Part shown: positions 48,663 to 53,621 of the stretch, piece after piece | How the letters are laid out: each line of letters starts with the position of its first letter | Position numbering within the stretch: the stretch's first letter is position 1 | From: Actinomadura hallensis | GTDB taxonomy: Bacteria; Actinomycetota; Actinomycetes; Streptosporangiales; Streptosporangiaceae | Direction: 5' to 3' | DNA length: 64,000 nt | Assembly: GCF_006716765.1 (NCBI RefSeq) | Contig: NZ_VFPO01000001.1 | Span: forward strand, 744,001-808,000 | The notes under the pieces: model-generated | The model's database searches: none | Told to the model about the DNA's origin: nothing | Seen by the model: only the letters and a program-made list of their open reading frames with translations | Made by a program: the position numbers and the translations under genes

Positions 48663-49077
48663 ACCTGGCAGGATGCTTGTCAACCCGCCGGGCGCGGCAG
48701 TCCGGCATCGGCCTTGCCGACGGTCAGAATCTGCACGGCGCGATCGCCGCCGTGAGATTCGCGCCCATGCTGGCAGGGTCCATGTCCTCGAGTACCTCTC
48801 CCAGGCCGGCGACGGAACCCCAACGTGATGGAACTGCGGACCCTTGGCGCTGTCACGGATCTTCGTGCGGAGCGCGCGGTGTGCTGCTTCTGGTTCGTGA
48901 CATCTCCAGACATTCCGGGAACTGTTGCGACGTGGGGGCCGGGCGATCGTAGGGATGGGAGGCAAGCCAGGAGGAGCTTGTGTCGTCCTGGCCCGAGGCT
49001 GTGCTGTCGTGCTCGGTAGGCCAGTCTGTCGCCGTCCGTGATGGTCGATGCATCCACCGCAGACCCACCCTGCCCTT
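48663..49077. other. Gap between cobalt operon and integrase
   Basis: No credible gene is visible. Short frames on both strands lack motifs. The GC content dips slightly compared with the cobalamin genes. The stretch may contain the left end or control region of an integrated element. Confidence 0.4.
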
Positions 49078-50526
49078 ATGAGAAGAGCGAGGAGTGCCGG
49101 TGGTGTGTACCGGCGATGTGGCTGCGAGGAGCCAGACACCGGCCGCACCCTGGGTAGTAGGTGTCCGCGACTGGCGGCCGAGCGCAGCCATGGCAGTTGG
49201 TACCTGCGCCTCGAACTGGACACCGGAACGGACGGTCGCCGTCGACGGGTCCGCCGGGGCGGGTTCCCGACCCGCAAGGCCGCGCTGGAGGCGTTGGTAC
49301 GGCTGCGTGGCCCGGCTGGGAGTCCGCTGACGGTCGCCTCGTGGCTGGAGCGGTGGCTGGAGAACCATCCGGGTGCGCCGTCCACGGTGACCGGGTACGC
49401 CGATCACGTGCGGCGGTATCTGAACCCGCTGTTGGGTCACCTGCTGCTGGCGGAAATGTCGGTCCTGCGCGTGGAGGAGATGTTCGCGGTCATCACCCGC
49501 GAGCATCAGGGCGCGGGCCGGCGGCTGTCGGCCGCGACGCTGGATCGGATCCGCGCGACGCTGCGGGCGGCGTTGAACGCGGCGCTCCGCCAGGGGCTGG
49601 TGGAGGAGAACCCGGCGTCGCTGGTGGCGTTGCCTCCGACGCGGCGGCCGCGTGCGGTGGTGTGGACCGCCGCCCGTGTCCAGCACTGGCGCAAGACCGG
49701 GGAGCGGCCCGCCGTGGCTGTATGGACCGCTGCTCAGACGGCCCAGTTCCTGGACGCGATCGCCGCGCACCGTCTGTATGCGGCCTACCATCTGATCGCG
49801 TTGCGTGGACTGCGGCGCGGTGAGGCGGCCGGGCTGCGGTGGTGCGATGTCGACTTGGACGAGGGCACCGCGGTGATCTGCCGGCAGTTGCAGCGACGGG
49901 ACGGGCGGCTGATGGTATGCCCGCCCAAGACCGCGCACAGTACCCGGGTGATCGCGCTGGACCGCACCACGATCGCGGCGCTGCGCGCCCATCGATCAAA
50001 GCAGCAGGCCGAAGCGGCCGCCTACGGCGAGGGGTACCGCGACAGCGGGTATGTCTTCACCAACCTCAACGGTGACCCGGTTGCCCCGGGCCGGCTCACC
50101 CACGTGTTCCAGAAACTGATCGCCGAGCACGACCTGGCGCCGATCCGGCTGCACGACCTACGCCATGGTGCCGCGACGCTGGCGCTGGCCGCCGGCGTGG
50201 AACTGAAGGTGGTGCAGGAGATGCTCGGCCATTCCAGCATCGTGCTGACCGCCGACACCTACACCTCCGTCCTACCCGAAGTCGCGCACCGCGCAGCCGA
50301 GCAGACCGCAACGCACCTGCTGCGCGCCGCGGGCATGGTGCCCGGCACCACCCGACGTCGCGGCCGTGCCCTGGCCCGGCATCGGCGCCCTACTGGGGGT
50401 CACACCCGGACCGGTCTGGTGCGGCGCCGGGGGGCGAACAGTAGGCGTCCCGCATCGGCAGGTCCCCGCCCACGGGCTCGGCCGCTTGGACGCCTCCGCT
50501 CGGATCCTGCGGTATCGGCTGCGTAA
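49078..50526 (+). CDS. Tyrosine recombinase / phage-type integrase
   Basis: This protein has about 482 residues from ATG 49078 (GTG 49048 is in frame). It has an N-terminal arm-binding part (GSWYLRLELDTGTDGRRRRV), a core-binding SAM-like domain (SWLERWLENHPGAPSTVTGY) and the catalytic domain with Arg in LRGLRRGEAAGLRWCDVD, H-x-x-R in RLHDLRHGAATLALAAG, His in EMLGHSSIVLTADTY and the nucleophile Tyr in TADTYTSVLPE. All catalytic residues are present. The last 55 residues are basic and probably disordered. It reads towards the 3' end of tRNA-Lys, the classic arrangement for an integrase and its attachment site. Confidence 0.9.
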   Translation: MRRARSAGGVYRRCGCEEPDTGRTLGSRCPRLAAERSHGSWYLRLELDTGTDGRRRRVRRGGFPTRKAALEALVRLRGPAGSPLTVASWLERWLENHPGAPSTVTGYADHVRRYLNPLLGHLLLAEMSVLRVEEMFAVITREHQGAGRRLSAATLDRIRATLRAALNAALRQGLVEENPASLVALPPTRRPRAVVWTAARVQHWRKTGERPAVAVWTAAQTAQFLDAIAAHRLYAAYHLIALRGLRRGEAAGLRWCDVDLDEGTAVICRQLQRRDGRLMVCPPKTAHSTRVIALDRTTIAALRAHRSKQQAEAAAYGEGYRDSGYVFTNLNGDPVAPGRLTHVFQKLIAEHDLAPIRLHDLRHGAATLALAAGVELKVVQEMLGHSSIVLTADTYTSVLPEVAHRAAEQTATHLLRAAGMVPGTTRRRGRALARHRRPTGGHTRTGLVRRRGANSRRPASAGPRPRARPLGRLRSDPAVSAA

Positions 50527-50764
50527 TCGAGAGCCTGTGCTCCCTGCCCCACCTGGCGACCTGCGAAAGGACTAACCGCATACCGGTGACGCGCCACCGC
50601 TGAAGAGGTGGGTGCGGAGATACGGCCTTGCCCCCACAGGGACGGCAAGACAGAAAGCGACCGTGGCTCGGCTTGTGCGCCGTCTAGGCCCCAGGGTGGC
50701 CTCATCCCGGCCCAAGGCATGATCACCGACACACCCGGCAGAGGGTGTTTGCCCTGGTCAGGGG

Positions 50765-50840
50765 TGGTGGGTCGCGTGGGACTCGAACCCACAGCCTACG
50801 GATTAAAAGTCCGGAGCTCTGCCAATTGAGCTAGCGACCC
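50765..50840 (-). tRNA. tRNA-Lys(TTT)
   Basis: The minus strand folds as a tRNA: acceptor GGGTCGC/GCGACCC, D-arm TAGCTCAATTGGCAGAGC, anticodon loop CTTTTAA giving anticodon TTT, T-arm GTGGGTTCGAGTCCCAC, discriminator A (50768) and an encoded CCA (50765-50767). Its 3' end faces the integrase gene 240 bases away and could be an integration site. Confidence 0.95.
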
Positions 50841-51236
50841 GTCGTGCAAGGGTACCGAGATCGCCGGGGGGTTCGCGACGGGGTTACGGGGTGGCGGCCA
50901 GGTGGACGGGGAGGTGCTTCAGGCCGTTCTGGAAGTTGGAGGTCAGGCGGACGGGCGGGCCGGTGCGGGTGATGCGGAGGGGGAGGAGTTCGCGGAAGAC
51001 GGCGCGCATCTGGGTGCGGGCCAGGTGGGCGCCGAGGCAGAAGTGGGGGCCGAAGCCGAAGCTGACGTGGTCGTTGGGGTGCGGGCGATGTCGAAGCGGT
51101 CGGGGGAGGGGAAGACCGTTTCGTCGCGGTTGGCGGAGGCGTGGTAGACGACGACCTTGTCGCCCGCCCGGATGTCCTGGCCGGAGAGCCGCAGGGACGT
51201 GGTGGCGGTGCGGCGGAAGTCCATCACCGGGGGCCA

Positions 51237-51400
51237 TTGACGCGCTCCCCGGCCTGAAGGCCGGGGATTCAGCCCGTGCCGCGGGTGCGGCACCTCTGTG
51301 GCTTCCTGTTTCACCGGGTCCTGCCCTCCGCTAGGCGGCGGGTCTTACGGTCCCTCCGCAGGCGTTTAGCCTCTCCGCCCGTCCGGCGGCGAGGATGTTC
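51237..51400 (-). ncRNA. Probable omega RNA (guide scaffold) at the tnpB right end
   Basis: In TnpB elements the right end, including the last part of tnpB, is transcribed as the guide scaffold. Here a strong stem CCCCGGCC/GGCCGGGG (51247-51266) lies next to the TCAA terminus. The guide would start at 51236 and read TGGCCCCCGGTGATGGACTT from the P450 gene. The 5' limit is a guess, and expression is inferred from known systems only. Confidence 0.45.
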
Positions 51401-52482
51401 TTGGCGGCGTTGACGTCCCGGTCGTGGACCGCCCCGCACGGGCAGGCCCACGACCGGACGTTCAGCGGCATGGACTCGGCGACCGCCCCGCACGCCGAGC
51501 ACAGTTTCGAGCTGGGGAACCAGCGGTCCACCTTGACCAGGGTCCGGCCATGCCGGGCGGCCTTGTAGGTGAGCATCTGCGTGAACTGGCCCCATCCGGC
51601 GTCGTGCACGCTCTTGGCCAGGCGCGTGCGGGCCAGGCCCTTCACCGCCAGGTCCTCCACCATCACCGCTTGGTTCTCGCGGACGATCCGGGTGGAGAGC
51701 TGGTGAGCGAAGTCCCGGCGCGCATCGGCCACCCGAGCATGGGCACGGGCGACCTTGACCACGGCCTTGGCGCGGTTGTTCGATCCCTTCGCCTTGCGGG
51801 ACAGGGCCTGCTGAGCCTTGCGCAACCGCCGTTCGGCGCGGCGGAGGAACCGCCGATTGCCGATCTTCCGGCCGTCCGAGAGCACCGCGAAGTGCGTCAG
51901 GCCCAGGTCGATCCCGATCTCGGCGGCCGTCTGCGGCAGCGGCTCGCCGGCGGCCTCGACCACGAACGAGGCGAAGTACCGCCCGGCCGCGTCTTTGATC
52001 ACGGTCACGCTGGACGGTTCGGACGGCAGGCGGCGGGACCAGCGCACTTTGACATCGCCGATCTTCGGCAGGCGCAGTTTCCCTCCCGCCGTGACCTGGA
52101 AGCGGGCATTGCGGGTGAAGCGGATCACCTGCCGGTTGTCCTTGCGGGACCGGAACCGGGGCGGGGCGGCCTTCGGCCCCTTGCGCTTGCCCGACAGCGA
52201 AGCGAAGAAGTTGCGGTAGGCGGTGTTCAGGTCGGCCAGCGCCTGCTGGAGCACCACGGCGGACACCTCGCCCAGCCAGGAACGCTGCGGGGTCTTCTTG
52301 GCCTCGGTGATGACCCGCTTGGACAGCTCGCCGTCGGAGATGTACGGCAGACCGGCCGCGTGGGCGTCCTGCCTGGCGCGCAGCCCGTCGTTGAACACCA
52401 CCCGGGAGCACCCGAACGCGCGGGCCAGAACGGCGCACTGGCCCGGGGTCGGGTAGAGGCGGAAGGTGTACCGGAGCTGCAC
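51331..52482 (-). CDS. tnpB: TnpB RNA-guided nuclease of an IS605-type element
   Basis: This protein has 383 residues from GTG 52482. The N-terminal helix-turn-helix/wedge part starts LRYTFRLYPTPGQCAVLARA. RuvC-type catalytic residues are present: Asp192 in EIGIDLGLTHFAVLSDG, Glu276 in AVMVEDLAVKGLARTRL and Asp356 in AVHDRDVNAAKNILAAG. A zinc finger lies between (Cys328, Cys331, Cys347, Cys349 in KLCSACGAV and RSWACPCG). TnpB proteins cut DNA guided by an RNA made from the element's right end and keep the element from being lost. The gene ends 91 bases from the right end, as is typical. Confidence 0.92.
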   Translation of the reverse strand: MQLRYTFRLYPTPGQCAVLARAFGCSRVVFNDGLRARQDAHAAGLPYISDGELSKRVITEAKKTPQRSWLGEVSAVVLQQALADLNTAYRNFFASLSGKRKGPKAAPPRFRSRKDNRQVIRFTRNARFQVTAGGKLRLPKIGDVKVRWSRRLPSEPSSVTVIKDAAGRYFASFVVEAAGEPLPQTAAEIGIDLGLTHFAVLSDGRKIGNRRFLRRAERRLRKAQQALSRKAKGSNNRAKAVVKVARAHARVADARRDFAHQLSTRIVRENQAVMVEDLAVKGLARTRLAKSVHDAGWGQFTQMLTYKAARHGRTLVKVDRWFPSSKLCSACGAVAESMPLNVRSWACPCGAVHDRDVNAAKNILAAGRAERLNACGGTVRPAA

Positions 52483-52504
52483 GCCATGATTTTGGCATTG
52501 GTGT

Positions 52505-52603
52505 ATGACCGAGTACGAAGACATCAGAACAGGTAGACACTGTGTTCTCGCCCTGCACGCCCACTTGGTTTTCGTCACCAAGTTCCGGCATCCGGTGTTC
52601 ACC
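52505..52603 (+). pseudogene. Truncated TnpA (Y1/HUH transposase) start
   Basis: The first 33 codons encode MTEYEDIRTGRHCVLALHAH and LVFVTKFRHPVFT, the N-terminus of IS200/IS605 Y1 transposases, including the start of the LVFVTKYR strand. The HUH motif and catalytic Tyr are lost; after residue 33 the sequence passes into the left end of the element. It diverges from tnpB across 22 bases, as in complete IS605 elements. The element therefore cannot move on its own. Confidence 0.8.
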
Positions 52604-53621
52604 TTTCCCTGCCCCGCTACGCGGGAGGGTCCGCTTCACCCCCGGCCTGAAGGACCGAGCACTGCGGACGAGCCGGTAGCGGAGCATCTCCTCGACCGCT
52701 GAGGGGAGCAGGGACGGGTCGGCGCGGAGGCGGGCCAGTTCGGAGGGGTGGTCGAGGAGGGTGTGGAGGCCGCCCGGGATGCCGTTGCGGAGGGTCTCGT
52801 TCCCGGCGACGGCGAAGAGGAAGAACATGTTCTCGAACTCTTGGGTGGTGAGGCCGCCTTCGAGCATGCGGGACATGACGTCGTCGGACGGCTTCTTGCG
52901 CTTCTCGGCGGCCAGGGCGTGGGCGTAGGCGAACATGTCGGCCAGGGCCGCGTACGAGCGGGGGTTGAGGGGACGGCCGTCGGGGCGGACGGTGGCGGGA
53001 CGGTACTTCATGGCCTCGCGGGCCATGGGGGTCATCGTGGTGGCGTCGGCGGTGGAGAGGCCGGCGTAGTCGTCGTCCTGGTAGCCGATGACGCGGGACG
53101 CCCAGTCGTACAGGAGGCGGCGGTCGGATTCGGGGACGCCCATGATGTGGGCGAGGGTCCAGACGGGGAGGTCGGACGTGAGTTCGACGAAGTCGGTGTC
53201 CTCGTTCAGGGCCGAGGTGATGAGGGTGCGGGCCCGGGCGTTGATCGTGTCTTCCAGGGCGCGGACGGCGCGGGGGGTGAACGCGGCGGCGACGATGCGG
53301 CGGAGGCGGGAGTGGCCGGGCGGGTCCTGGTTGAGCATCATCGCGCGGACGAAGGCGAGGTCCTCGGGCGTGTCGGGGTCGCGGATCTGGGTGGCGCCGA
53401 GGTGGGAGGAGAACAGGTCCGGGGAGCGCAGGACCTGCTTCACGTCGGCGTGCCGGAAGACCGCCCAGTATCCGGGGCCGGCGGGCCAGGGGCCGACGGC
53501 CGGTTCCGGGATCCACGCGACGGGGGATTCGGCGCGCAGGCGTTCGAACGTCTCGTACGGGACGCCGGTCGCGTAGGTGGACGGCAGGAAGATCTCCTCG
53601 CGCATGCCCCAAGCGTGCATC

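Follow-up and report, generated by a model that had tools for sequence, protein, structure and literature searches.

What interrupts a P450 gene of Actinomadura hallensis, and does the inserted DNA still act on its site? The window (the whole stretch of 64,000 nucleotides that was analysed) belongs to a complete 6.70 Mb genome, and the same-genus relatives with which it was compared are Actinomadura. Our preferred reading, to which we give a probability of roughly 0.8, is that the intruder is an internally deleted, TnpB-only element of the IS608 type, mobilised in trans into the P450 after a GCTAC motif and encoding TnpB together with a predicted omega-RNA guided by P450 sequence. The features on which this reading draws are collected in Table 1.

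Table 1. Features of the interrupted P450 locus, with positions in the window.
Feature	Position	Strand	Basis
IS200/IS605 (IS608-type) element, tnpA-deleted, 1439 bp	51237..52675	minus	sequence; three-copy alignment; siblings; empty alleles
Right cleavage tetranucleotide TCAA (CR)	51237..51240	minus	37/38 right ends listed; identical to IS608 CR (PMC5934647)
Right-end GAAT (GR, 51267-51270) and hairpin CCCCGGCC-TTCA-GGCCGGGG (IPR)	51247..51270	minus	sequence; 83 right ends with hairpin; compensatory changes
Left-end AGTG (GL, 52660-52663) and hairpin (IPL, 52640-52659)	52640..52663	minus	sequence; PMC5934647 pairing rule
Target / transposon-associated motif (TAM) GCTAC, kept at left flank	52676..52680	minus	present in 16/16 siblings mapped at both ends; also in 3/3 own copies
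tnpB, GTG start, 383 aa; RuvC D192/E276/D356; zinc ribbon CSAC...CPC	51331..52482	minus	PF01385, PF07282, PF12323; NF040570; 8bf8/8h1j
tnpA remnant: codons 1-33 of a Y1 transposase gene running divergently from tnpB, remainder deleted	52505..52603	plus	91% to full-length TnpA of sibling G017, residues 1-33
Predicted omega-RNA core, covarying stems over tnpB 3′ end and right end	51305..51362	minus	RNAalifold, 38 sequences
Predicted 16-nt guide TGGCCCCCGGTGATGG (P450 sequence)	51221..51236	minus	position as in ISDra2 reRNA (PMC8612924); conserved in relatives
P450 5′ part, 310 codons, up to ExxR-Y of K helix	52676..53605	minus	orthologues
P450 3′ part with haem Cys motif FGFGPHFCLG and private -1 frameshift at 51076-51079	50887..51236	minus	orthologues

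Ends of the element and the interrupted gene

When the element is left out, ...GAGATGCTCCGCTAC joins TGGCCCCCGGTGATGG in frame: the P450 reading passes from ...EEMLRY, ending in GCTAC, to WPPVMDF (TGGCCCCCGG), the joint EEMLRY/WPPVMDF falling right after the K-helix ExxR motif. An earlier note, made from the letters of the window, had claimed that the boundaries at 51237 and 52675 are exact, that no copy of the target was made, that the right end is TCAA as in IS608 and that the motif next to the target is C(G)CTAC; it had proposed a search of related genomes for the intact P450 and an alignment of the left flanks of sibling elements. Both comparisons bear these claims out. In 46 of the 64 other genomes of the genus an orthologue passes over the joint without interruption (the closest is 93% identical), and against such orthologues the element lies directly 3′ of GCTAC, with no target duplication. 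GCTAC occupies the left flank in every sibling from another genome for which both ends were mapped (16/16) and in all three copies of this genome. These 16 siblings and the two further in-genome copies also share the ends of the window copy, rather than showing the same element with different ends.

In all three own copies the termini read GCTAC/CGGCTCG ... GCGTCAA/. A T follows TCAA in each of them and was considered as part of the element, a candidate rejected on the evidence of the siblings, in which any base is found at this position. Because this next base varies, TCAA is the true end of the element. The right end as a whole has GAAT immediately 5′ of a strong hairpin, followed by TCAA, which is the GR-IPR-CR order of IS608. 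For the left end, the published pairing rule (PMC5934647) assigns target positions -3 and -4 to the first two bases of the guide; applied to a CTAC target it predicts a guide starting with AG, and AGTG are the bases directly 5′ of the left hairpin. Family, target and ends are mutually consistent, because both AGTG/CTAC and GAAT-hairpin-TCAA fit the IS608 rules. Two characters of the IS608 group are present: insertion at a fixed motif without duplication, and subterminal hairpins with GL/GR pairing. All three own insertions sit in sense at TAC (Tyr) codons. In GC-rich genes GCTAC would be expected from codon usage to fall mainly at Tyr codons, and a special mechanism is not needed.

The 3′ half of the P450 carries a lesion of its own: one nucleotide fewer in the C run at 51076-51079 than in 29 orthologues among the matches listed, which shifts the frame just 5′ of the haem-binding motif. 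The loss may date from after the insertion, when selection had relaxed, may be older than the insertion, or may be an assembly error. Since the gene carries this second frameshift, it would stay broken even if the element were excised precisely. Both the lost nucleotide and the tnpA remnant had been overlooked in the earlier note. Beside the P450, at 49048-50840 in the window, a phage-type integrase gene (PF00589) adjoins a tRNA-Lys (TTT), an arrangement that suggests the end of an integrated element.

Loss of tnpA and the other copies

A further character of the IS608 group, the Y1 HUH TnpA, survives in each of the three copies only as a deleted remnant. In other Actinomadura, siblings that have identical ends possess an intact tnpA, 138 codons long and divergently oriented; the element is therefore a non-autonomous derivative and not a separate family. 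The other two own copies retain codons 1-39 and 116-138, and the window copy, with codons 1-33, has lost a further 127 bp. One tnpA deletion is thus common to the three copies, which must therefore have moved after it arose. Neither PF01797 nor a search with the sibling protein revealed a Y1 transposase anywhere else in the complete genome; such an enzyme is present in 19 of the 65 genomes of the genus. With its tnpA deleted, in a genome devoid of Y1 transposase, the element is unable to excise from a site or insert again without help. We infer that the copies were mobilised in trans by a transposase that has since been lost or was present only for a time. That enzyme would have moved the element as a single-stranded circle, which would have entered the P450 coding strand directly 3′ of GCTAC, the site being picked by pairing of the left-end guide AGTG.

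The three copies, in the window, at 6236.6 kb and at 5122.5 kb, are near-identical. That at 6236.6 kb is a clean insertion relative to 28 relatives, in an acyl-CoA synthetase-like gene identified by translation. Copies so alike could in principle have been spread by recombination or gene conversion instead of transposition, but this is highly improbable: GCTAC is the sole feature common to the three flanks, the window and 6236.6 kb sites are both clean insertions against 28-46 relatives, and exact IS608-type junctions at unrelated genes disfavour such an origin.

The copy at 5122.5 kb is not a clean insertion. It replaces a GCTAC-to-GCTAC interval of about 0.8 kb and truncates two genes, one with DUF7064/DUF7065 domains, in which its left flank lies, and one for an APH-type phosphotransferase, in which its right flank lies. 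In eight relatives 794-839 bp separate the two flanks; the left junction reads GCTAC/GAGATC in all eight, and the right junction falls after GCTAC in five and after GCCAC in three. The DNA between the flanks is absent from this genome. Either two copies, one at each motif, underwent recombination, or the transposase, instead of using the proper left site, linked the right end with the downstream GCTAC, an event that would delete exactly this interval. It is possible, if doubtful, that this represents an exact adjacent deletion of IS608 type: during excision the left guide would pair with a second GCTAC on the far side of the right end, the intervening DNA would be lost, and the element would remain with a new guide. 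Homing by TnpB could in turn propagate element and deletion together.

The left hairpin of the window copy has two stem mismatches, and the copy at 5122 kb has the same two, as would fit descent of one from the lineage of the other. The two copies with these mismatches (52640-52659 in the window) occupy different sites. Elsewhere, most informative siblings (L014, L044, L042, L026, L036 and probably L048) match contiguous empty sites. In another sibling, L055 (G051 contig 11), the flanks map to distant loci in relatives and the left-flank match ends 27 nt before the element; this is possibly a rearrangement through the element. A recent arrival via plasmid or phage was also considered, and rejected on the grounds that relatives there are only 60-80% identical.

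TnpB, the predicted omega-RNA and the question of drive

TnpB is apparently complete and intact. It scores 359 bits against the NF040570 guided_TnpB profile, above the cut-off, and its residues 6-383 align with ISDra2 TnpB (8bf8/8h1j) at an E value of about 1e-76. The RuvC residues and zinc finger, which the earlier note had taken to be whole, are indeed present: the D/E/D triad aligns to D191/E278/D361 of ISDra2 TnpB, and the zinc ribbon has CxC rather than CxxC as its second knuckle. That CxC might signify damage was rejected, since most siblings have it as a widespread variant of the clade. Across the sibling family tnpB is under purifying selection, with pairwise dN/dS of about 0.21-0.31 (computed from dN and dS). 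Six substitutions separate the three own copies of the gene; five of them alter the protein, and no constraint is therefore visible since the copies spread.

A conserved predicted fold covers about 51237-51426, the last 190 nt of the element. In the RNAalifold alignment of 38 sequences its covariation score is 0.574, against 0.166 ± 0.015 when shuffled; stems outside the terminal hairpin contain 132 cells with two-sided compensatory change versus 44 ± 5 in shuffles, which ignore relatedness. Sliding the stem partners abolishes the signal. The covarying region differs from the TnpA-bound hairpin, which argues for an RNA. No Rfam family matched the region, and identity with a named Rfam omega-RNA was rejected. 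The predicted omega-RNA likely carries P450 sequence as its guide, in keeping with what had been proposed from the sequence beside the right end: its 3′ end would run past the right end into the P450, and by analogy with the ISDra2 reRNA (PMC8612924) the guide would be roughly the 16 nt 3′ of TCAA, TGGCCCCCGGTGATGG.

GCTAC is kept in 25 of 30 aligned orthologous empty alleles. All 25 match the 16-nt guide with 0-3 mismatches, 12 of them with 0-1 and two exactly. The claim that the guide "would cut any empty allele" is over-stated, the motif being absent from the other five. Conservation of guide and target tracks the protein motif ExxR-Y-WPP, and selection by TnpB is therefore not needed to account for it. 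Within this genome there is no unoccupied exact or near-exact target; the nearest with a CTAC motif has 3 mismatches.

If expressed, TnpB with its RNA would cleave P450 alleles free of TnpB where GCTAC adjoins the guide sequence; the break would then be repaired with the occupied copy as template, which would put the element back in place. Homing by TnpB has been proposed (PMC8612924), and gene drive of IS200/IS605 elements has been demonstrated in plasmids (PMC11870625). The description of the insertion as drive-like is to this extent plausible, and published for the family; it is not new, and with tnpA lost the homing half is all that could operate. Given this loss, TnpB could only copy the element into TnpB-less alleles arriving by gene transfer. 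That it does so at present, fixing the insertion and spreading it to incoming P450 alleles, is in our view unlikely. The complete TnpB, the RNA fold, the conserved target in 25 of 30 alleles and the known activity of family members (PMC8612924, PMC11870625) are what such a process would call for; but across 65 genomes no spread is seen at this P450 site, where the element is present in only one, the chromosome is effectively haploid, and without a transposase there are no empty sisters to refill.

The converse possibility is that the three copies are inert, left from a past burst, with TnpB now unneeded or unexpressed and the relation of guide to gene a by-product of insertion. We consider this a serious contender, if somewhat short of an even chance. 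The genome-wide absence of tnpA, the five protein-altering substitutions among six, the second lesion in the P450 and the damaged left hairpin all accord with it, whereas none of the three tnpB frames is interrupted, each keeps its RuvC triad, and copies so nearly identical have had too little time for decay. The substitutions among the three tnpB copies and the two left-hairpin mismatches of the window copy also weigh against the preferred reading.

Relation to known elements

The mechanism is already known, and the element is an ordinary, well-preserved example. Its value is as a clean natural case, in which the occupied site, many conserved empty alleles, the ends of siblings and the RNA fold are all legible in the sequence; for this reason both the GCTAC TAM and the guide of an actinobacterial TnpB can be predicted without experiment. 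The locus also indicates that TnpB elements can persist after the transposase has vanished from a genome. The points of specialist interest are the loss of tnpA and the exact deletion copy, the latter being the freshest.

Compared with ISDra2 of Deinococcus radiodurans and its reRNA, the element is alike in the alignment of TnpB, in the guide beside the right end and in the left-flank motif serving as target; it is unlike in its motif (GCTAC rather than TTGAT), its deleted tnpA and its CxC zinc ribbon. With IS608 of Helicobacter pylori it shares an identical CR (TCAA) and GR (GAAT), insertion 3′ of a tetranucleotide and a GL that pairs with the target at -3 and -4 (PMC5934647); IS608, however, combines TTAC with AAAG, whereas the present element combines CTAC with a GL of AGTG, is actinobacterial and lacks a transposase. 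The plasmid gene drive of IS200/IS605 elements (PMC11870625) offers a parallel to the proposed cutting of IS-less copies and spread of the IS by repair, although here the putative drive would involve a chromosomal, transposase-less element.
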